A DNA stretch of 45,610 nt from a virus. The DNA is taken from positions 1-45,610 of IMG/VR virus record IMGVR_UViG_3300031972_000064; one strand, given 5' to 3'. This document shows, piece after piece, positions 5,563 to 44,977 of this stretch. Within the stretch, counting starts at the first letter, position 1. Each line of letters begins with the position of its first letter. The position numbers were made by a program, and so were the translations under genes. Under the pieces are notes generated by a model, which had not been told where the DNA came from, searched no databases, and was given only the letters and a program-made list of their open reading frames with translations.

Positions 5563-7686
5563 ATGTCCGATAACTTTTTGGAACCTGCGGACGACACCGC
5601 CGTACCAGTCTTTGAACCCGAAGAGCAAATGCCGGGTTTGGCTGCGTATGTAAAGGCACGATTTGACGACGCAGAAAACGGACGGTTTTCGTACGAGCAG
5701 CGATGGCTGAGAGCGTACAAAAACTTTCGTGGCATTTATGATTCTACAACACAATACCGTGACAGTGAAAAGTCAAAGGTGTTCATCAAGATTACCAAGA
5801 CAAAGGTGCTTGCTGCGTACGGTCAGATTGTAGACATCCTTTTTGCAAACAAAAAGTTTCCATTGGTCATAGAGCCAACTCCCATACCAGAGGGTATAGC
5901 AGAGTTTGCCCACCTTACTACTCCGCTAGATCAAATGCAACCTCCGGAAGACCCGTACGGATTTGAGGGTGATGGTCGTGAGTTGCCGTTTGGTGCCACG
6001 CAAGCTACCCCTGCCTCTGGCGATTTTTTGGGTGGACTAGCTAGCCAGTACGGTGATGCACCCCTGTCTGAAGGCCCAGCCAAAATGGGTGAGCCACAGA
6101 TTAGCCCTGCACAAAAGGCTGCACTCAACATGGAGAAGATGGTTCACGATCAGCTTCTTGATACACGTGCAGTAAACGTGCTTCGTAGTTCTATCTTTGA
6201 ATCCGCTCTGCTAGGTACAGGAGTTGTAAAGGGTCCGTTCAATCACTACAAACGGGTACACCGCTGGGAAAACGGACCAGAGGGACGAGTGTACAGTCCG
6301 TACGAGCGTATTGTTCCTCGTATCGAACACGTATCCCCGTGGGACTTTCATCCTGATCCCTCTGCTACAAGCATAGACGATTGCGAATACGTAATTCAAC
6401 GACACCGCATGAACCGTCAACAACTTCGTAACCTTATCTCACAGCCTCACTTTTACGCTGACGCTATTGAAGAGTGCCTTGCAAAAGGACCAAACTACGA
6501 AGACAAGTATTACGAAGACACCATTCGTGAAGAAGAGACTGAGCCGTACGTCGGTGACAGTCGTTACGAAGTTCTTGAATATTGGGGCTTCCTTGATGCC
6601 AAACTTGCACGAGAAGCGGGACTAGACATTCCTGCTGACATGAGTGAGTTTGAACAGGTACAAGTGAACGTGTGGGCATGTGGTACCCTGATCCTACGCT
6701 GCGTTATGAACCCATTTACGCCAGCCCGTATACCTTACCAAGTGTTTCCATATGAAATCAACCCGTACCAAGTGTGGGGTGTTGGTGTTGCAGAGAACAT
6801 GGAAGACGCACAACTGCTGATGAACGGCCACGTTCGTATGGCAATCGACAATCTGGCGTTGGCGGGTAACCTAGTGTTTGATGTGGACGAAGCTTCACTT
6901 GTTCCCGGACAAAACATGGATATCTTTCCCGGTAAGATATTCCGCCGTCAGTCCGGTGTAACAGGGACGGCAATCAACGGCCTCAAGTTTCCGAACACAG
7001 CACCTGAAAACATTCAGATGTATCAAATCAGCCGACAACTTGCTGACGAAGAAACAGGTTTGCCGTCGATTATGCACGGTCAAACAGGAGTAACGGGCAC
7101 GGGACGCACAGCATCTGGACTGTCTATGTTGTTGGGCGGAGCAAGTCTGTCCCTTAAAACGGTGATTAAGAATATAGACGACCAGCTTCTCAAGCCACTG
7201 GGTGAAGCGTACTTTCAGTGGAACATGCAGTTCAACGAAAGTTCCCCGGAGATTGAGGGTGACCTAGAGATTAAACCTCGTGGTGTAGCTGCAGTGATGC
7301 AAAAGGAAGTACGCAGTCAACGACTAACTACACTGCTACAGACAGTATCCAATCCGATGCTGGCACCGTTTATCAAAATACCAAACCTCATGCGTGAACT
7401 GGCTATTGCACAAGACATTGATCCTGACAGCCTTGTGAACGACATGAACGAAGCACAGATTTTTGCAGAGATGTTGAAAGGACTAGCCAATGCTCAACAA
7501 GAAGCAAGCCAGCAAGGTCAGCCCGCTGGTGGCGAACAAGGAAGCGTGGGACAGTCTGGAGGAGTACCTGCAGGAGCAAATCCGAATGACGCTTCGGGCG
7601 TTGGTGGCGGCACAATCGGAACTGGAAGTGTTCCGGCTGCAGGGGAAGATAACTTCACTGGAACAGATCAAGGGATTGAAGGCTGA
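5563..7686 (+). CDS. Portal (head-tail connector) protein
   Basis: The 707-aa protein would form the dodecameric ring at the packaging vertex. Features typical of large podovirus portals are a helical N-terminal part with RFSYEQRWLRAYKNFRG (about residues 42-58), a Pro/Gly-rich loop (about 120-180), a SPWDFHPDP segment near 260, and a late helical stretch (LADEETGLPSIMHG) near 490. The last 75 residues are Gly/Ala/Gln low complexity and are overprinted by another gene in the +1 frame. The ribosome-binding site AAGGAAG precedes ATG 5563. Position after terminase and before the scaffold and capsid genes, together with length, makes the call strong although no catalytic motif exists for the family. 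Confidence 0.85.
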   Translation: MSDNFLEPADDTAVPVFEPEEQMPGLAAYVKARFDDAENGRFSYEQRWLRAYKNFRGIYDSTTQYRDSEKSKVFIKITKTKVLAAYGQIVDILFANKKFPLVIEPTPIPEGIAEFAHLTTPLDQMQPPEDPYGFEGDGRELPFGATQATPASGDFLGGLASQYGDAPLSEGPAKMGEPQISPAQKAALNMEKMVHDQLLDTRAVNVLRSSIFESALLGTGVVKGPFNHYKRVHRWENGPEGRVYSPYERIVPRIEHVSPWDFHPDPSATSIDDCEYVIQRHRMNRQQLRNLISQPHFYADAIEECLAKGPNYEDKYYEDTIREEETEPYVGDSRYEVLEYWGFLDAKLAREAGLDIPADMSEFEQVQVNVWACGTLILRCVMNPFTPARIPYQVFPYEINPYQVWGVGVAENMEDAQLLMNGHVRMAIDNLALAGNLVFDVDEASLVPGQNMDIFPGKIFRRQSGVTGTAINGLKFPNTAPENIQMYQISRQLADEETGLPSIMHGQTGVTGTGRTASGLSMLLGGASLSLKTVIKNIDDQLLKPLGEAYFQWNMQFNESSPEIEGDLEIKPRGVAAVMQKEVRSQRLTTLLQTVSNPMLAPFIKIPNLMRELAIAQDIDPDSLVNDMNEAQIFAEMLKGLANAQQEASQQGQPAGGEQGSVGQSGGVPAGANPNDASGVGGGTIGTGSVPAAGEDNFTGTDQGIEG

Positions 7687-7720
7687 TTATGAAGCTGCGG
7701 TGGATGTAAAGAATGGCTAA
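7490..7720 (+). CDS. Overprinted small helical protein inside the portal 3' end
   Basis: This 76-aa ORF lies almost wholly within the last 197 bases of the portal gene, in another frame. It looks like a real protein: an SKVSPLVANKEAWDSLEEY opening followed by two amphipathic helices (a LRALVAAQ-type helix and a FRLQGKITSLEQIKGLK helix). Short helical proteins of this sort follow the portal in many podoviruses. The portal tail read from the same bases is low complexity, as expected where the second frame is constrained. AAAGGA lies eight bases before ATG 7490. The stop overlaps the start of the next gene (7713) by eight bases, consistent with coupling. Confidence 0.8.
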   Translation: MLNKKQASKVSPLVANKEAWDSLEEYLQEQIRMTLRALVAAQSELEVFRLQGKITSLEQIKGLKADYEAAVDVKNG

Positions 7721-9689
7721 TGAGTTTTTAAAATCAGTGGTAGACCTCGCTGTTTCTCCTCCAGAACGTCCGTCAGTAGGAACTCCTAGTCCATACGAGG
7801 AAGATGATCCTGACCGTCGTCACGAAAAGTTTGGGATAACACGGTACACTGATCCGGGTTACTACAAGTCTGCGGGACAAGTTGCGGGATCAGATGATCG
7901 CAGCGGTTCTAAATTTTATTCTGGCACAATGGGAGTGTCCAGTTTAACTGGTAGTGTGGCTGATAACTTTGTAGGTATGCCCAAAGGTCTAGGAATGGGC
8001 TTGAGCATGATGGGTGTATCCGGCTTTGGCGTCGGAGCCATGATGAGCCTAAAGAATTTAAGTAATATTGAAGAAAAAATGAAAGCGGGAGAAGCTGGTT
8101 ACGGCGTTGGAGTGTTTAACAATCGTATTATTGGTGTTTCTCCGGGATTGTTTGGAGGGTACACTTTGTCTGGTGTTCTTCCAGAGGGATTAACAAATAA
8201 ACAACGCCAACAACTCATTGACAGTCTTTTGGGAATTTCTGCTGGTCAAAATCCTCCGGGCGATGACACTGACGGAACTCCTCCGGGCGATGACACTACT
8301 CCGGGAGATGACGGCGACCCAACAACACCTCCGGGATACAATCCTGATCTTCCGTATGACGGATACAACCCGTACCCCGATGAAGGTAATAGACCCACAC
8401 CTACACCTCCGTCTGATGGCGGCGGCAGCGGTCCTAACTACCCTGCTCCTAACCCCATTGATGACGTTGTTCCGGGTGATCCCCCGCCGTCCCGTCCTCC
8501 GTCTCGTCCCGACAATCGCCCACCACAGTCTGATGGCGGCGGCGGCGGCGGACAACACCCATCTGATCCCGGTGGAGGTGGCGGAGGCGGCGGCAGTTCC
8601 GGTGGAGGTGGCGGAGGCGGCGGCAGTTCCGGTGGAGGTGGCGGAGGCGGCCACGGTACAGACAATGATCCCGGTTATGGGGGAGGTTACAGAGCCTCTG
8701 GTGGCCCTGTAGGCTTTGCAGAGGGTGGTACCACCAAAAAAGACCCAATTCAGTCTACGGGCTTTGTAGACGGCCCACCGCAAAACTATGCAAAAGGCAC
8801 CACTGTAGCTGACACAGAAAATCACCGTGTACGTGTAGGTTCGTTTGTTCTTAACGCACCAACTACAGAACGACTGCAAAAAGAAGGAAAGCTACCAAAA
8901 GGTCCACAAAAGCGCAGGGCTGCAAAAGGCGGCAAAATGATGGATGTAGCCCTCTCTAAAGGTGAGTACGTTATTGACGTAGACGACATTGACAAGTTTG
9001 GTGGGTACGACGCCCTTAACGCAGAGAACGACAAGGGCAAGCCAGAAGTAGATCGCAGACAAGCAGCAATGGGCGGCAGTTTTTTAGACGGATACTCAGA
9101 AGGCGGAGAATTACCTCTTTCAAGAATTAAACTAGACAACTCTACCAAAACAAAATTTAACACGTTTTTAAAGAGTCGTCGTCAACGTGCAGATGTTGAA
9201 AAACTAATTGATAGTATGGACGACAGAGAGCGTTTGGCTGTGTTAGCCCTAGCTGAAACGACTGCTGCTACTGACCCTGTTGAATCTATGATGGGCGTAG
9301 GACAAACAGCAATAAATCGAGCCAGAAGCAACAGACGAGATTTTTCTAAAGTAAATGATCTTGGAGCAGTAATGAAACAACGCTCTTTTCGTGGCAGCGG
9401 AAGTAAAATGTTTCAGTACGATGGATTAGAGCCGGGTGTTCTTAGCAAAAGACTTACAGAGGTAGTTAAGGGGCAGGTTCCCGGAGCAGTAACTAAAATG
9501 TTTTCTGCTGCAGATAATCTTTTAAACCCTGAAACAGAATCTGATCCTATAATTCCATTTGATGTGATGTTTTACACCACTCCTGATGCTCCTCTTGCAA
9601 AGAACTTTGAAAGAAATCCTTTGCTAAGATACACTAAAAGTTTTGGAGGGCATGATTATTACGCCCTAGATGCTGCACCAGAAAATTAA
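7713..9689 (+). CDS. Virion-associated protein with SleB-like cell wall hydrolase domain
   Basis: The 658-aa protein has several zones. Residues 1-90 are polar. A hydrophobic Gly/Met segment at about 91-112 could insert in membrane. Residues 180-320 form a long Pro/Asp then poly-Gly/Ser linker encoded by tandem repeats. A LSKGEYVIDVDDI segment near 415-428 resembles a motif of phage internal or structural proteins. The C-terminal domain (about 500-655) resembles SleB/CwlJ-type hydrolases: RERLAVLALAETTAA with candidate catalytic E515, then GVGQTAINRARSN and FQYDG. It would cut peptidoglycan, probably during DNA entry because the gene lies in the head-gene block rather than the lysis cassette. 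The hydrolase call is by motif resemblance. Confidence 0.7.
   Translation: MANEFLKSVVDLAVSPPERPSVGTPSPYEEDDPDRRHEKFGITRYTDPGYYKSAGQVAGSDDRSGSKFYSGTMGVSSLTGSVADNFVGMPKGLGMGLSMMGVSGFGVGAMMSLKNLSNIEEKMKAGEAGYGVGVFNNRIIGVSPGLFGGYTLSGVLPEGLTNKQRQQLIDSLLGISAGQNPPGDDTDGTPPGDDTTPGDDGDPTTPPGYNPDLPYDGYNPYPDEGNRPTPTPPSDGGGSGPNYPAPNPIDDVVPGDPPPSRPPSRPDNRPPQSDGGGGGGQHPSDPGGGGGGGGSSGGGGGGGGSSGGGGGGGHGTDNDPGYGGGYRASGGPVGFAEGGTTKKDPIQSTGFVDGPPQNYAKGTTVADTENHRVRVGSFVLNAPTTERLQKEGKLPKGPQKRRAAKGGKMMDVALSKGEYVIDVDDIDKFGGYDALNAENDKGKPEVDRRQAAMGGSFLDGYSEGGELPLSRIKLDNSTKTKFNTFLKSRRQRADVEKLIDSMDDRERLAVLALAETTAATDPVESMMGVGQTAINRARSNRRDFSKVNDLGAVMKQRSFRGSGSKMFQYDGLEPGVLSKRLTEVVKGQVPGAVTKMFSAADNLLNPETESDPIIPFDVMFYTTPDAPLAKNFERNPLLRYTKSFGGHDYYALDAAPEN
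8571..8652 (+). repeat. 30-bp tandem repeat encoding Gly8-Ser2 units
   Basis: Two perfect 30-base copies (8571-8600 and 8601-8630) and a partial third (8631-8652) encode runs of eight glycines and two serines. An upstream GGC run at about 8538-8550 and duplicated CCGGGCGATGACACT blocks (8266-8300) show the same tendency to expand. In the protein this is a flexible linker between the N-terminal part and the hydrolase half. Copy number is likely to vary between relatives. Confidence 0.9.
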
Positions 9690-16628: not shown

Positions 16629-17693
16629 ATGGCAAGCACATACCTTACTTTAGTCAACAACGTACTCCGCGACTTTAACGAAGTTGAACTAACCAGTTCC
16701 AACTTTACAAACTCTCGTGGTGTACAGACTACGGTAAAAGACTATGTTAATCGTTCGATTACTGATCTTATCAACTCTGAACTAAATTGGCCGTTTACTC
16801 GTGCTGCTGGTTCTGTTGACGTGATTGCAGGTAAGTCTTTGTACAGCCATGAGAGTATAGCGTCAAATCTTAAATACGTTGACTACGACACAATGTTTCT
16901 TCGTCCAAAAAACTATATTGCCAACGGAGACTTTGAGATTGCAGGGGCTGCAAGCATTACTAATTGGACTGCTGTATCCGGTACTCCTGTAGCTAGTTCT
17001 AAGTTTGGCAACACTTTGCTGCTTACTAACGCAGAAGCATCCCAAGAAGTAACCGACCTTATTGTGGGCCGGTCTTACATTGTAGTTACGCAAACCAGTG
17101 GTGCCACACTCACTCTTGAGATAGGAACCAGTTCAGGTGGATCACAAACTAAATCTGCTACGATCACTATTGCCAGTGGCAACGAAGTGGCTCTTACCGA
17201 AACTACGTTTACTGCTACAGCTACTACGCACTACGTAAGCTTTACTGAAGCAGCGGGCAATGCAGCGTTTGTTAAATTGGTAGAACTAAGTGAAGATGTT
17301 TTGCCTATTCCCCTCAAGTATTTATCCTATGAAGAGTACAACGATGCGTTTCGTGAGCGTGATACTCGCCCTGACACAGACAGGTTTGCTGATCCAGAAT
17401 ACGTATACACCACCTACAATAATGAAATTGGTCTAACTCCCATTCCAGACACAAGCAATCGAACCTTAGAGTTTGATTACTACGTCGATAATACTGATCT
17501 ATCTGCGGCAACTGATACATCAATTATTCCTGCGCGATTTGAGACAGTGATAAATGCCCGCGCAAAATATTACACGCACATGTTTCGTTCCGACGTACAA
17601 GCTGCACAGTTCTCCTTAAAGGAATACGAGGATGGAATTAAACGTATGCGTATTGAGTTGCTTAATCGGAAGAACTACATGAGGGCTGTATAG
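16629..17693 (+). CDS. Head-tail adaptor (tail tubular A-like) protein with inserted beta domain
   Basis: The 354-aa protein fits the adaptor ring that joins portal to tail nozzle. The N-terminal helical part (YVNRSITDLINSELNWPFTR, residues about 39-58) and the C-terminal helices (FETVINARAKYYTHMFRSD) are typical. Between them, residues about 93-222 form a separate beta-rich unit beginning NYIANGDFE with NWTAVSG, and containing GRSYIVV and HYVSFTEAAG. This looks like a carbohydrate-binding jelly-roll module inserted in the core, which resumes at LPIPLKYLSYEEYND. The gene lies before the nozzle protein as in other podoviruses. The binding-module call is by resemblance only. Confidence 0.8.
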   Translation: MASTYLTLVNNVLRDFNEVELTSSNFTNSRGVQTTVKDYVNRSITDLINSELNWPFTRAAGSVDVIAGKSLYSHESIASNLKYVDYDTMFLRPKNYIANGDFEIAGAASITNWTAVSGTPVASSKFGNTLLLTNAEASQEVTDLIVGRSYIVVTQTSGATLTLEIGTSSGGSQTKSATITIASGNEVALTETTFTATATTHYVSFTEAAGNAAFVKLVELSEDVLPIPLKYLSYEEYNDAFRERDTRPDTDRFADPEYVYTTYNNEIGLTPIPDTSNRTLEFDYYVDNTDLSAATDTSIIPARFETVINARAKYYTHMFRSDVQAAQFSLKEYEDGIKRMRIELLNRKNYMRAV

Positions 17694-37189: not shown

Positions 37190-37304
37190 CCTTTTCTTTC
37201 ACTTTCTGCCACTCATCCCACTGTTCCGACTTGCGTGGAGGATTGTAGATAATATAATCTACTCCCCGCTTCCACACAAGTAGTTTATTTTGTTTAGGCT
37301 GCAT
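37167..37304 (-). CDS. Small protein between reductase and T5orf172 gene, 45 aa
   Basis: ATG 37304 lies 11 bases inside the 3' end of the ribonucleotide reductase gene, and TAA 37169-37167 lies inside the start of the next gene. The product is basic and hydrophilic: MQPKQNKLLVWKRGVDYIIY, then NPPRKSEQWDEW and a Lys/Glu-rich helical end. This fills a gap that would otherwise be the only unexplained space in the operon, and the overlaps on both sides match local style. No family is recognised. The gene contains an inverted repeat (37245-37262). Confidence 0.6.
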   Translation of the reverse strand: MQPKQNKLLVWKRGVDYIIYNPPRKSEQWDEWQKVKEKDEQKIRS

Positions 37305-39291
37305 TGAGGTCTACCACTTCACACACCCCAGCAGTACACGCTAACTCCCGCGAACCTGTTGTATTGTCCTCACGTTCAAAGTCCGTAAGCCGTGACCAGT
37401 CAAGATTGACGTATGTCATACGATCTTTCCACTCAAGATATTCATCCGGTTCTATGTCTTGGTATGGTGCCTGTTGGTATGTGTGATCACTAAACGGAAG
37501 AAATGACACACCAGATGCCACGTCAAAGTTCTCGTACACCCACGCACCAACTTCCATCCACTCATCTTCTTTGACAGTAACAGTGATAGACGGTTTGTGT
37601 TCACACCAGTGCAGTGCGTATGTTTTCCACAACTCTAGCTGGTTGACAGCACTCATGTCTGTACGTGTCACTGCCCCCTGTGGTGACTGCATAGGAAAAG
37701 AAAACACGATAACGGAATCAGGCTTAGTTACGTCACGTTCTGCAGGTACACCAGAGTCTATAAGGAACTGGGTAAGCGGGTCTTTGGAGTCTCCGCGCAC
37801 CGTACGCACGTAGTGTTTATTGTGACGAGCGTGTATACCACTAGCAGCGTCAACAAGCTGTGAGACGGTCCCAGATGGCTTTACGCAAGTAATAGCAGCG
37901 GACTGTGGTATGCCCAAAGTCTTGGCGTACACTTCGTTTGTTTCGACTGCAGTGTCACGCATCTCTTCTAACCACCGCTTACTGTCCACATTCTTTGACA
38001 AAACAGAGTGATCCATAATACCGGTAAGTGAAACACCAAGCAGACGTTCTTCTTCTGTGTTGTCCTTCCACACTTTGCGAAGGTATTTAAAATCAGTCAG
38101 GGTAGACTGTATAGTCCCCAAGATGGTTGCCAAACGAACTTTGCGCTTGAGGGTTTGCAGGGTATCGTGTTCCCGAACCACCACCTCTGACAAGTTACAG
38201 AACTGATACGGGCGCAGTATAATTTCACTGCAGGGGTTTGTACCAAAATCAATATAGCTTGACTTATCTCTGTGTGGGTGCATGGTATAATGTGAATCTG
38301 AATCATCAAGTAATGGTTTGTCGTGCAGTTTTCTACGACCATTTTTTGCAGCTTGTTTAATAGCCGCTTCACGATTAAAGATGCCACGCTCCCCAGACTT
38401 GCTATCGTAAAGGGACAACCACTCACGCATAAACGTACCCATTTCTGGTTTGGTTTTGTACGCTACAGAGTTGTTGGCTAGGGCACGTTGCCCCTCGTGT
38501 TCCCACCACTGACCGGACTTAGCGTGTGCCATTTGGTCGTCGTTTAAATTAGACAGACTGATGAGTGCGCTGCGGCGTACACCCCCAACGACCACTACTT
38601 CTCCTACTTTACACATAAGATCGTGACACTCTATTGGATACAGCTTACGTCCTTTTGCCTTTTTAAATGTGTCGATAGTGAAGTTGAACAGATCGACAAG
38701 AGGCTGCGGCCCAGAGGCACGTCCACCCATAACCTTTAGTCGTGCCCCTGCAGGACGGATGCCGTCTACGTTATACTGTGGTATTTGCCCAGCGTACAAC
38801 AGCGCAATCAATTCTCTGTAAGCCTTCGCCCATCCCGGCTTGCTGTCAGCTACGTTTATTTCTGTGTTAGACTTACTAAAGTTGTCTGATACAACAGGCA
38901 GCTTCTCTACGTTTTCACGCTCAACAGAAAAGCCCACACCCGTGCCGCACATAAGAATGTACATGCACTCGTCAAACGAACGAGGACTGTCTACTGGTAT
39001 GTAACTGCAGTTGTACCCACAGATGTTGTCTCGCGCTAAAGCGGGTCCAGCGGTCATCATAGCCCGCATGGATGGCATAATTTCCAAGTTCAACACAGCT
39101 TCGCGCAAGTCTTCTGTGTCTTCATCAGACAAGTCGTAGTCAAACTTGTCTTTGAGGTGAGACACCATGTAACTAATGTATCGGTCTACAGTTTCATCGT
39201 AGTTCTCACGACGACCTTCGTCTTCGATCCAACGGGCGTAACGTGACTTGTGTATGAATTCTTGGTAGGGAGTGGGCAGTAAATTATTCAT
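37294..39291 (-). CDS. nrdJ: Adenosylcobalamin-dependent ribonucleoside-triphosphate reductase (class II, monomeric)
   Basis: The 665-aa enzyme would convert ribonucleoside triphosphates to deoxy forms for phage DNA synthesis using coenzyme B12. Spacing of key residues matches the Lactobacillus leichmannii enzyme: C95 (YNCSY), radical-site C353 with E355 (NPCSEI), C364 (QFCNL) eleven residues later, and the C-terminal shuttle pair C652/C657 (ACTAGVC). MCGTGVGFSVE, VSLTGIMD and CVKPSGTVSQLVDA are also typical. The start is 39291 (MNNLLPT), with AAGGA upstream; the longer frame to 39327 overlaps the zinc-ribbon gene. No thioredoxin or glutaredoxin gene is visible in the window, so reduction probably relies on the host. 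Confidence 0.95.
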   Translation of the reverse strand: MNNLLPTPYQEFIHKSRYARWIEDEGRRENYDETVDRYISYMVSHLKDKFDYDLSDEDTEDLREAVLNLEIMPSMRAMMTAGPALARDNICGYNCSYIPVDSPRSFDECMYILMCGTGVGFSVERENVEKLPVVSDNFSKSNTEINVADSKPGWAKAYRELIALLYAGQIPQYNVDGIRPAGARLKVMGGRASGPQPLVDLFNFTIDTFKKAKGRKLYPIECHDLMCKVGEVVVVGGVRRSALISLSNLNDDQMAHAKSGQWWEHEGQRALANNSVAYKTKPEMGTFMREWLSLYDSKSGERGIFNREAAIKQAAKNGRRKLHDKPLLDDSDSHYTMHPHRDKSSYIDFGTNPCSEIILRPYQFCNLSEVVVREHDTLQTLKRKVRLATILGTIQSTLTDFKYLRKVWKDNTEEERLLGVSLTGIMDHSVLSKNVDSKRWLEEMRDTAVETNEVYAKTLGIPQSAAITCVKPSGTVSQLVDAASGIHARHNKHYVRTVRGDSKDPLTQFLIDSGVPAERDVTKPDSVIVFSFPMQSPQGAVTRTDMSAVNQLELWKTYALHWCEHKPSITVTVKEDEWMEVGAWVYENFDVASGVSFLPFSDHTYQQAPYQDIEPDEYLEWKDRMTYVNLDWSRLTDFEREDNTTGSRELACTAGVCEVVDLNAA

Positions 39292-39442
39292 TGTCTGTTC
39301 CTTCTTTTTGATTTGGATAATATACATAGACTACAGAATTACAGTGTGGGCAGTGCAGGTTAGTAACCATAACGTAGTCCTCTTCTTCTAGATCGTGATC
39401 ACCGCCCCATATCAATTCGTGATTGCAGTGCCAACAATTCAT
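39284..39442 (-). CDS. Small zinc-ribbon protein, 52 aa
   Basis: ATG 39442 overlaps the upstream stop as ATGA, and its TAA overlaps the reductase start by eight bases. The protein has two CxxC knuckles, C3/C6 and C31/C34, separated by an acidic loop (DLEEEDYVMV), which should bind one zinc ion. The MNCWHC...LIWGGDHD pattern is a recurring small protein in marine phages. Function is unknown. Direct coupling to the reductase gene suggests a link with nucleotide metabolism or transcription control. Confidence 0.8.
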   Translation of the reverse strand: MNCWHCNHELIWGGDHDLEEEDYVMVTNLHCPHCNSVVYVYYPNQKEGTDNE

Positions 39443-42897: not shown

Positions 42898-44433
42898 CTA
42901 TTCTACAACAGTTAAGTCAAGCCAATTATCGCCGCTTTTTATCTCAATTTCGACAGGCATGTCATAACAAATGTTATAACGTCTTAAAGTTTCTTGGGGT
43001 AACGACAACATTGCTTCACGCATCAGCCTGATACAAATGTTAAATTCATCAGGGTGACAGTCCAGTACAATCGAATCGTGTACCGTATTACAAATTACAG
43101 ATTGCAGTTCGTTTTCTTGAAATAATTTGTCCAAGCGTACCAATGCAGCGGGCAACAGATCAGCCGTTGCAAAGCCTTGCACGGGATAGTTGCAGATGTT
43201 TGTGCGGTGTGTAGCCGTACCGTACTTTGTCCACCGCGCATCAGGGAAAGCGTACTGTCTTCCAGACGGTAACGTCACTACGCGGTGTGTAACGGCCTCT
43301 CGCTGGAGGTCTTCATGCCAGAGTGCTACCCCACCATACTTCTCTTTGAACGCCCTGTAGTAGCGTTGTTGGGCCTCTGTGCCCGTAGTGCCGCCGTAGA
43401 GAGGCTTGAAGGTGTGTGCCTTTGCTTCTTGCCGTGAACAGCCAATCACACTGGCAGTGTAACTGTGTACGTCTGTGCCAGCCTCTACGTCAGCATAGGC
43501 TTGACTGTCTTGTGCTAGAAATCCTGCGACTCTGAATTCCAACTGCGAGTAGTCGCCCTCCACAATCTTACCCTGCGGGAAACGACTCTCCACAACCTTC
43601 CGTATTTCAAACGTGTTACCTCGTGGCATATTTTGAAAGTTAGGATTGCGAGACGAAAGGCGACCCGTCGCCGTAACACACTGCATAAATTCCGGATGTA
43701 TGAAACCGTGGTCATCGACATTGTTTTTCATTCCCTCTACAAACGTACCAAGATACATACGCAGTGCGTTGTACCGCACGTACGCAGATGCAAACTCACG
43801 GGCTGGACCCGACAGTTCTAGTTCCCGTTCAGCCAGTGTATCCTTGTCTGTTTTAAACCCAGCAGATGCTACGTCACGCACGTTGCGGGGTACAATCTTG
43901 AACCCAGCCACCTCTCCGGTAGACCGGTATATAACACCCTTGCCGCTGCACTGCTTGCAGACACGCAACGCTTTGCTGGGAGTTCCGTCTTTACGTACGG
44001 GACGCACACGGCCTGTACCGACACACGCAAGACACTGCTCACCCCGTGTTTTGAACACCACGTCTGTGTTGTTTCGTACAGAAATACGAAAGTCTTTGGC
44101 GGACATACGAGTGCGTTGCTTTGGTTTCATTGTGGCACCGCGCTGCTCCATGCCCAAGTTGAACATAGATGCCCACGACTTTTTGTCTTTGACTTTGCGT
44201 GAGTATAGCAGCATTGACCTGTCATCGGGGCTGGTCAGGCTGATGGGTGTGTCCCCCATAGCTGCACGGGCCATGTCGTTGAGACGCAACTCCAGCGCAT
44301 CAAACTCATCTTGGTACAGCTTTTCGATTTCATCCAGTGTGTCTAGGTTGACACGCAGCCCGTTGCGTTCGATGCGGGCTAGTGTGTCAGTCATCTCAAG
44401 CGACAGACGCAATGTCGGTAGTAGATCGTTCAT
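42898..44433 (-). CDS. polA: DNA polymerase, family A, polymerase domain with DnaJ-type zinc finger
   Basis: The 511-aa product is the palm-fingers-thumb part of a family A polymerase. Motif A is GDYSQLEFR (293-301, D294). The fingers helix runs RQEAK...F...YG with R334, K338 and F342. Motif C is VHDS (D453). Residues 134-137 and 159-162 are CxxC pairs in CxxCxGxG context, half of a DnaJ central domain, lying before the palm as reported for phage HMO-2011. The proofreading domain is not in this ORF but in the overlapping upstream gene. Start 44433 has GAGGA eight bases upstream; the frame to 44502 is not protein-like. Confidence 0.93.
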   Translation of the reverse strand: MNDLLPTLRLSLEMTDTLARIERNGLRVNLDTLDEIEKLYQDEFDALELRLNDMARAAMGDTPISLTSPDDRSMLLYSRKVKDKKSWASMFNLGMEQRGATMKPKQRTRMSAKDFRISVRNNTDVVFKTRGEQCLACVGTGRVRPVRKDGTPSKALRVCKQCSGKGVIYRSTGEVAGFKIVPRNVRDVASAGFKTDKDTLAERELELSGPAREFASAYVRYNALRMYLGTFVEGMKNNVDDHGFIHPEFMQCVTATGRLSSRNPNFQNMPRGNTFEIRKVVESRFPQGKIVEGDYSQLEFRVAGFLAQDSQAYADVEAGTDVHSYTASVIGCSRQEAKAHTFKPLYGGTTGTEAQQRYYRAFKEKYGGVALWHEDLQREAVTHRVVTLPSGRQYAFPDARWTKYGTATHRTNICNYPVQGFATADLLPAALVRLDKLFQENELQSVICNTVHDSIVLDCHPDEFNICIRLMREAMLSLPQETLRRYNICYDMPVEIEIKSGDNWLDLTVVE

Positions 44434-44977
44434 TGTATAGTTCCTCAAATGTAGTGCCAAAGGCTTCAAGTTGTTTGAGAGCAATCTGCTCTGTAGCTGC
44501 AACGTCAGCTATGCCGTACTCTTTTACTATTTCCCACGGTATTTCGAAAAAGGTTTTTCCCGCCGCCATAAACGGCTCAACGAGGTCTTTCTCTTTTTGC
44601 ACCGTGTCATACTTTTTTGCAAGAGCAGCAAGTCCAAGAGGCCATCGCCGCGCTTTCGATAAAACATACTCTGCAACCATAGTATCATAGATTTCTCCTG
44701 TGTATGTGAACCCACAGTCACGTATCCACGACAGATCAAACTTAATGTTTTGTCCCACAACTACATCAGCGTAGTCAAGAGATGTTTGGAAGTCCTCTGC
44801 CGCACTGTGCGTGGGCGGTTCAGTTTCGTGGTAGTAACAGTCATAGAACACCTGTTCCTCGTCCAACCACTTGTAACCTATTGAAACCAAACGATTACCA
44901 AAGTACGGCAGGGCAGTGGTGCCACCGGACGGCTTGTGTGTGTGGGTTGTCTCCACATCAAACGTCAGCACGTTCAC
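44396..44977 (-). CDS. DNA polymerase 3'-5' exonuclease as a separate gene
   Basis: The 193-aa protein is a DEDDy proofreading exonuclease: D7/E9 (FDVET), D81 (NIKFDLSW), D98 (YDTM) and Y154/D158 (YGIAD). Normally this domain is the N-terminal part of a family A polymerase. Here it ends with its own stop 38 bases inside the polymerase gene, which is in the other (+1) frame with its own ribosome-binding site. GTG 44977 overlaps the upstream stop as GTGA and has GGAGGAGA before it. The two chains probably associate to rebuild a proofreading polymerase. A frameshift fusion or a sequencing error are alternatives. Confidence 0.88.
   Translation of the reverse strand: MNVLTFDVETTHTHKPSGGTTALPYFGNRLVSIGYKWLDEEQVFYDCYYHETEPPTHSAAEDFQTSLDYADVVVGQNIKFDLSWIRDCGFTYTGEIYDTMVAEYVLSKARRWPLGLAALAKKYDTVQKEKDLVEPFMAAGKTFFEIPWEIVKEYGIADVAATEQIALKQLEAFGTTFEELYNERSTTDIASVA

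Follow-up and report, generated by a model that had tools for sequence, protein, structure and literature searches.

Comparative evidence that a marine phage portal gene shares its 3' end with a conserved gene for a small helical protein

The portal protein gene of a marine phage ends in a stretch where a second reading frame is also open. This raises three questions: whether the second frame is a gene, whether the portal tail read from the same bases matters in its own right, and how such an arrangement arose. The DNA analysed (here called the window) is a 45,610-nucleotide (45.6 kb) IMG/VR virus record. The portal gene (707 aa, 5563..7686, plus strand) was recognised from homologous portals and from matches to PHROG 332 (E 1e-78), PHROG 1216 (E 1e-34) and Pfam SU10_portal (1.7e-26). 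A preliminary description had placed a 76-codon ORF in the +1 frame of its last 197 nt, and we found this ORF at 7490..7720 on the plus strand (ATG at 7490, TAA at 7718-7720). The Shine-Dalgarno sequence AAAGGA that had been assigned to it was also present, lying within portal codons at 7477..7482 (plus strand), 7 nt 5' of the ATG. The dual-coding segment, including the portal stop, spans 7490..7686 on the plus strand (197 nt; portal in frame 0, small gene in frame +1), and its portal product is residues 643-707.

We consider it very probable that 7490-7686 is doubly coding, specifying both the portal tail and, by internal initiation, a separate 76-residue helical protein. On the portal message, AAAGGA-7nt-ATG would serve as an internal start site from which ribosomes translate the +1 frame into this protein. 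Ribosomes translating the portal would read the same bases into a flexible C-terminal tail that carries a conserved Gly-rich motif. Translation of the small ORF is presumed here from comparative sequence evidence.

An open +1 frame is weak evidence for a gene, because the portal tail retains one in 25-50% of synonymous shuffles (the portal frame stays open across the small gene in 0.5-2% of synonymous shuffles). It is the conservation, and not the open frame, that goes beyond chance, and comparison with relatives is decisive. Using the portal protein alone as query, we retrieved 80 viral contigs, of which 76 span the whole region. We observed that the small ORF was intact in all 76, with an ATG start, one shared frame, a length of 70-85 aa and an overlap of 182-206 nt; there were no stop codons in the small frame. 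In the wider set of overlapping loci the start was ATG in 251/251, and a Shine-Dalgarno match of at least 4 nt preceded it in 247 of these 251, as against 7.4% of 8651 other ATGs within portal genes.

We further estimated substitution rates in 24 independent locus pairs of the window's clade. The portal-synonymous rate per opportunity was 0.27-0.43 at 6589-7488 and 0.016-0.044 at 7489-7683, an abrupt fall of about 10- to 20-fold whose boundary is the small-gene ATG. The synonymous rate of the downstream gene was not lowered (0.164 versus 0.185 upstream; 10 pairs). Counted at portal codon positions 1:2:3, substitutions were 104:8:914 upstream and 76:35:23 within the overlap, so that the third position of the small gene is now the freest. 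Changes that alter the small protein only, taken relative to the free synonymous rate, gave a small-frame omega of 0.07-0.10, which indicated that selection does not act on the portal frame alone. Comparison of sequences thus shows the small gene to be genuine, ancient, intact and under purifying selection. The dual coding over 197 nt that had been proposed from the window is well supported by this conservation and by the synonymous suppression.

It could be argued that the ORF is open by chance in portal DNA of low complexity, as the shuffles that leave the +1 frame open would allow. This is extremely improbable, since start, Shine-Dalgarno sequence, frame, length and protein sequence are kept in hundreds of loci, and since the synonymous suppression, the homologous separate genes and a confident predicted fold all speak against it; the conservation across lineages with separate genes led us to discard it. 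Nor do we give much weight to a conserved RNA or DNA element in place of a second protein, a slightly less remote explanation but still a very improbable one. Suppression by itself fails to separate coding from structure. However, the boundary of the suppression is the ATG, the variation has shifted to the third codon position of the small gene, and relatives encode the same protein as a stand-alone gene.

The window relates to the HMO-2011-type podoviruses, with homologous portal, TerL, MCP and family A DNA polymerase (42898-44502, minus strand). In HMO-2011-type and related podoviruses a small hypothetical gene likewise follows the portal. Homologous proteins were found in Rhizobium phage RHph_N3_13 (QIG69474), Sinorhizobium phage phiM6 (AXP07703), Vibrio phage CHOED (AHK11950) and HMO-2011 (AFV50589), with HMM E-values from 6e-14 to 4e-4. 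A profile HMM of the small gene matched 485 of the 490 portal loci in a non-redundant set and all of 69 further ones (554/559 together); the five loci that gave no match were four distant relatives and one early-ending contig. A separate homologous gene after the portal was seen in Rhizobium, Sinorhizobium, Roseobacter, Vibrio and Aeromonas phages, and in some contigs other genes were inserted between the two, which then lie up to 1.8 kb apart.

Measured from the ATG, the overlap was 182-215 nt in the window clade and about 173-218 nt in the HTVC-type. It was mostly 47-74 nt in the HMO-2011-type, mostly 25-50 nt in the CRP-207-type, 4-7 nt or none in the CRP-3/rhizobial group, and none to about 32 nt in the CHOED-type. 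In the HMO-2011-type and related podoviruses the small gene is separate or overlaps by 4-74 nt, whereas the 197 nt of the window make it almost wholly dual-coding. The Pelagibacter phages HTVC033P, HTVC103P and HTVC115P have a long overlap as in the window (191-212 nt, same frame); the tail motif of the HTVC103-type is decayed, unlike that of the window. In a CRP-207-like subset (L385, L387, L388, L389, L391, L393, L397) inserted genes separate the small gene from the upstream portal by 1.0-1.8 kb, and CRP-3 (L172, 4097-4261) and some relatives have an extra 54-aa ORF between the two genes. One locus (L138) has a portal gene frameshifted mid-way and an intact small gene about 0.5 kb on, which reflects either a sequencing error or a broken copy.

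These comparisons bear on the direction of the overlap. The small gene had been described as overprinted on the portal gene, but this direction is wrong, as most relatives, and also the outgroups, carry the small gene as a separate gene behind the portal; any overwriting is more likely to have been by the portal tail. Overprinted proteins are described as phylogenetically restricted and disorder-prone (PMC8227390). A frame that arose de novo by overprinting would be restricted to the overlapping lineage, and here separate homologues occur in relatives and outgroups. Such a frame would also tend to give a disordered product, and the small protein was predicted as four helices with pLDDT 94.5. 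Under either reading of its origin (see below), the small gene is widespread and not a lineage-restricted novelty. Unlike classical overprinting, with its novel, lineage-restricted and often disordered protein, this case involves a widespread and ordered one, and both the portal tail and the small protein also occur unoverlapped. The dual coding and the synonymous suppression are shared with other viral same-strand +1 overlaps (PMC8227390, PMC7017920). As 84% of viral gene overlaps are shorter than 50 nt (census PMC7017920), an overlap of 197 nt is long, yet not unheard of.

We also evaluated the portal tail. It had been described as Gly/Gln low complexity, which is incomplete, as it contains a conserved motif that is kept by codon choice. 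The consensus is GxGGGxIGTGxxPxxGExxFTG (also given as GxGGGxIGxGxxPxPGExGF[ST]G), and in the window the motif is GVGGGTIGTGSVPAAGEDNFTG, read in the portal frame at 7597..7662 (plus strand). Where the small gene is separate, portals carry the same motif at their C-terminus. It stands in a fixed register with the small gene, ending 161 or 164 nt past the HMM-estimated small-gene start in 65 overlapping loci. From the sequence and the alignments, CAGGGG (7640..7645, plus strand) encodes the invariant Gln-Gly (Q51-G52) of the small protein and, shifted by one base into the portal frame, the tail motif's invariant Gly694.

The portal-tail omega in the window clade was 0.29 (95% CI 0.20-0.38), calculated from portal-only changes against the free synonymous rate; NN/SN ratios alone are no proof of portal constraint, since they compare different codon positions. 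We built a motif matrix solely from portals with a separate small gene and scored the tails of the window clade with it. Their median score was 44.8, while synonymous recoding of the overlapping small genes gave -24.6 +/- 8.8 and in no case reached the observed score (z about 8). As the motif is never regained by synonymous recoding, we conclude that both frames are selected. By best synonymous choice, the small proteins of the window clade can accommodate about 65 bits of motif, and the separate ones about 14 (median), which is near the level of shuffled proteins. This difference in capacity shows that the small-protein residues and the tail motif are mutually adapted. Purifying selection thus acts on both frames in the window clade.

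A portal tail that is neutral read-through, with only the small frame mattering, is accordingly an improbable reading, though less so than a chance ORF or a nucleic-acid element. The HTVC103-type clade offers it something, since the portal-tail omega there is about 1.25 and the tail motif is decayed, in a neighbourhood that evolves fast. The tail also has no predicted structure, although the AlphaFold model of the portal was poor (16 sequences, pLDDT 55), so that the unstructured tail from residue 647 is only a hint. In the window clade the omega of 0.29 stands between normal synonymous rates on either side, the motif beats every synonymous recoding, and portals without an overlapped tail also keep it; the recoding test led us to reject the tail as a pure by-product in this clade. 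For the HTVC103-type pelagiphages the earlier view of the tail as filler may hold. In these phages (L185-L264) the tail is possibly relaxed or positively selected, and the small gene is still under selection.

The small protein had been described as helical, and AlphaFold2 (82 sequences) agreed, predicting four helices with pTM 0.78. Neither searches of Pfam, PHROG and NCBIfam, with 83 family members besides the window protein as queries, nor a profile-based search of the PDB sequences gave a meaningful match; the single family matches of low E were dispersed over unrelated helical families. Foldseek against the PDB found nothing at an E-value of 0.001 or below, and VIA-align of the PDB matches placed none above the helical background. 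The type III secretion chaperone fold PscE/EscE came out best (Z 7.2, rmsd 2.7, 68 aligned), which is below the trusted level for helical bundles. In the BFVD fold search the sole match at E <0.001 was a 70-aa phage protein (TM 0.82/0.88, 32% identity), and weaker matches in the viral library were to uncharacterised phage proteins. As the gene is conserved with the portal gene, usually between the portal and the scaffold/capsid genes and in one operon, we favour, somewhat, an accessory role in head assembly, either in incorporating the portal or in assembling the procapsid.

As to how the overlap arose, we compared trees of the portal (IQ-TREE) with those of TerL, MCP and a three-protein concatenation (FastTree), rooted on the CHOED-like phages or beyond. 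The overlapping lineages formed a paraphyletic grade in all four. The HTVC103/115-type was the first to split in the TerL, MCP and concatenated trees, and the window clade was first in the portal tree. Every tree but that of MCP, in which they grouped with the window clade, had HTVC033P and the contig L606 (both overlapping) as sister to the separated HMO/CRP/rhizobial clade. Monophyly of the overlapping lineages was not rejected (AU p=0.067, delta lnL 31). The paraphyly suggests, short of proof at this p value, an old overlap that was later undone. The overlap would be an old state of this phage branch, with the portal tail extended over a pre-existing gene.

There is about an even chance, in our estimate, that the overlap is ancestral: the tail and its motif would have arisen over the small gene, and a later tandem duplication of the dual-coding segment would have provided each protein with a copy of its own in the HMO-2011/CRP/rhizobial lineage. 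Besides the paraphyly and the position of HTVC033P and L606 beside the separated clade, this would account, without convergence, for the motif and the small protein being recognisable in both arrangements. In addition, HMO-2011-type portals still reach about 74 nt into the small gene, with the relative frame unchanged. However, the AU test leaves monophyly standing and the outgroup genes are separate. The alternative frame of separated portal tails also holds no remnant of the small protein (z near 0), leaving the duplication without a direct trace, and no intermediates with a double motif or a double small gene were seen among the portal loci. The opposite course, in which separate genes are ancestral, the tail was deleted, the portal was read through the other frame of the small gene and the motif re-evolved, we regard as rather unlikely. 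The outgroups and the HMO/CRP clade do have separate genes, and a tail deletion from an HMO-like gene would yield a window-like junction in the same frame, but convergence would be required at about 15 motif positions, starting from small proteins with the low motif capacity found for separate genes, and the trees favour paraphyly. We think it possible, at a little under even chances, that the overlap was built, long shared over 197 nt by two virion-module genes and then undone in a daughter lineage, where duplication of the dual-coding segment left each gene with its own copy. The tail motif and the small protein would then have taken shape during the overlap and now be adjacent, a natural resolution of an overlap in dsDNA phages.

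The suggestion that automatic gene callers could miss the small gene was borne out by the isolates. GenBank annotation lacks it in all three long-overlap isolates checked (HTVC103P, HTVC115P and HTVC033P), and also in CRP-345 and Aeromonas phage 1233; it is annotated short in HMO-2011 and split in ctYwJ313. Among the records examined, most of those with a separate small gene do annotate it. A survey of the HMO-2011-type phages (PMC9038755), which assigns HTVC033P and subgroups VII-X to a branch of their own, makes no mention of overlap, and our literature search found no paper on this overlap of portal and small gene. The pair thus appears to be dual-coding, conserved and mostly unannotated where the overlap is long, with both messages selected in the window clade. 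An abundant marine phage group thereby gains a conserved, structured head-module gene that automatic annotation drops at a long overlap. The relatives also provide a rare comparative series of one homologous gene pair, from separate through 4, 32 and 74 to about 200 nt of overlap. With sequences and cultured phages on both sides, this series makes the origin of overlaps, the mutual adaptation of frames and the undoing of overlaps testable.

Some minor observations concern the rest of the window. Its GC content is 43-50%, versus 32-35% reported for HMO-2011-type subgroups VII-IX (PMC9038755). The DNA polymerase of HMO-2011-type phages has been described with a partial DnaJ domain (PMC9038755), and for the 534-aa polymerase ORF of the window Pfam shows DNA_pol_A only. 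Domain searches, which also gave the polymerase, placed a ribonucleotide reductase with domains of the B12-dependent type at 37294-39327 (minus strand) and an SU10-type adaptor protein at 16629-17693 (plus strand). The gene that follows the small gene (7713..9689, plus strand) shares 8 nt, from its ATG, with the small-gene stop. A long central part of it is rich in Gly, Pro and Asp, Pfam gives no match to it, and in the window clade its non-synonymous rate was 0.07 against a synonymous rate of 0.16, which is high for a structural-module gene. The only nucleotide match of 7400-7800 to cultured phages was to HTVC115P (75% identity over 73 nt, 7594-7666). This match falls exactly on the dual-coding motif, and no DNA in this area is as conserved as the overlap.
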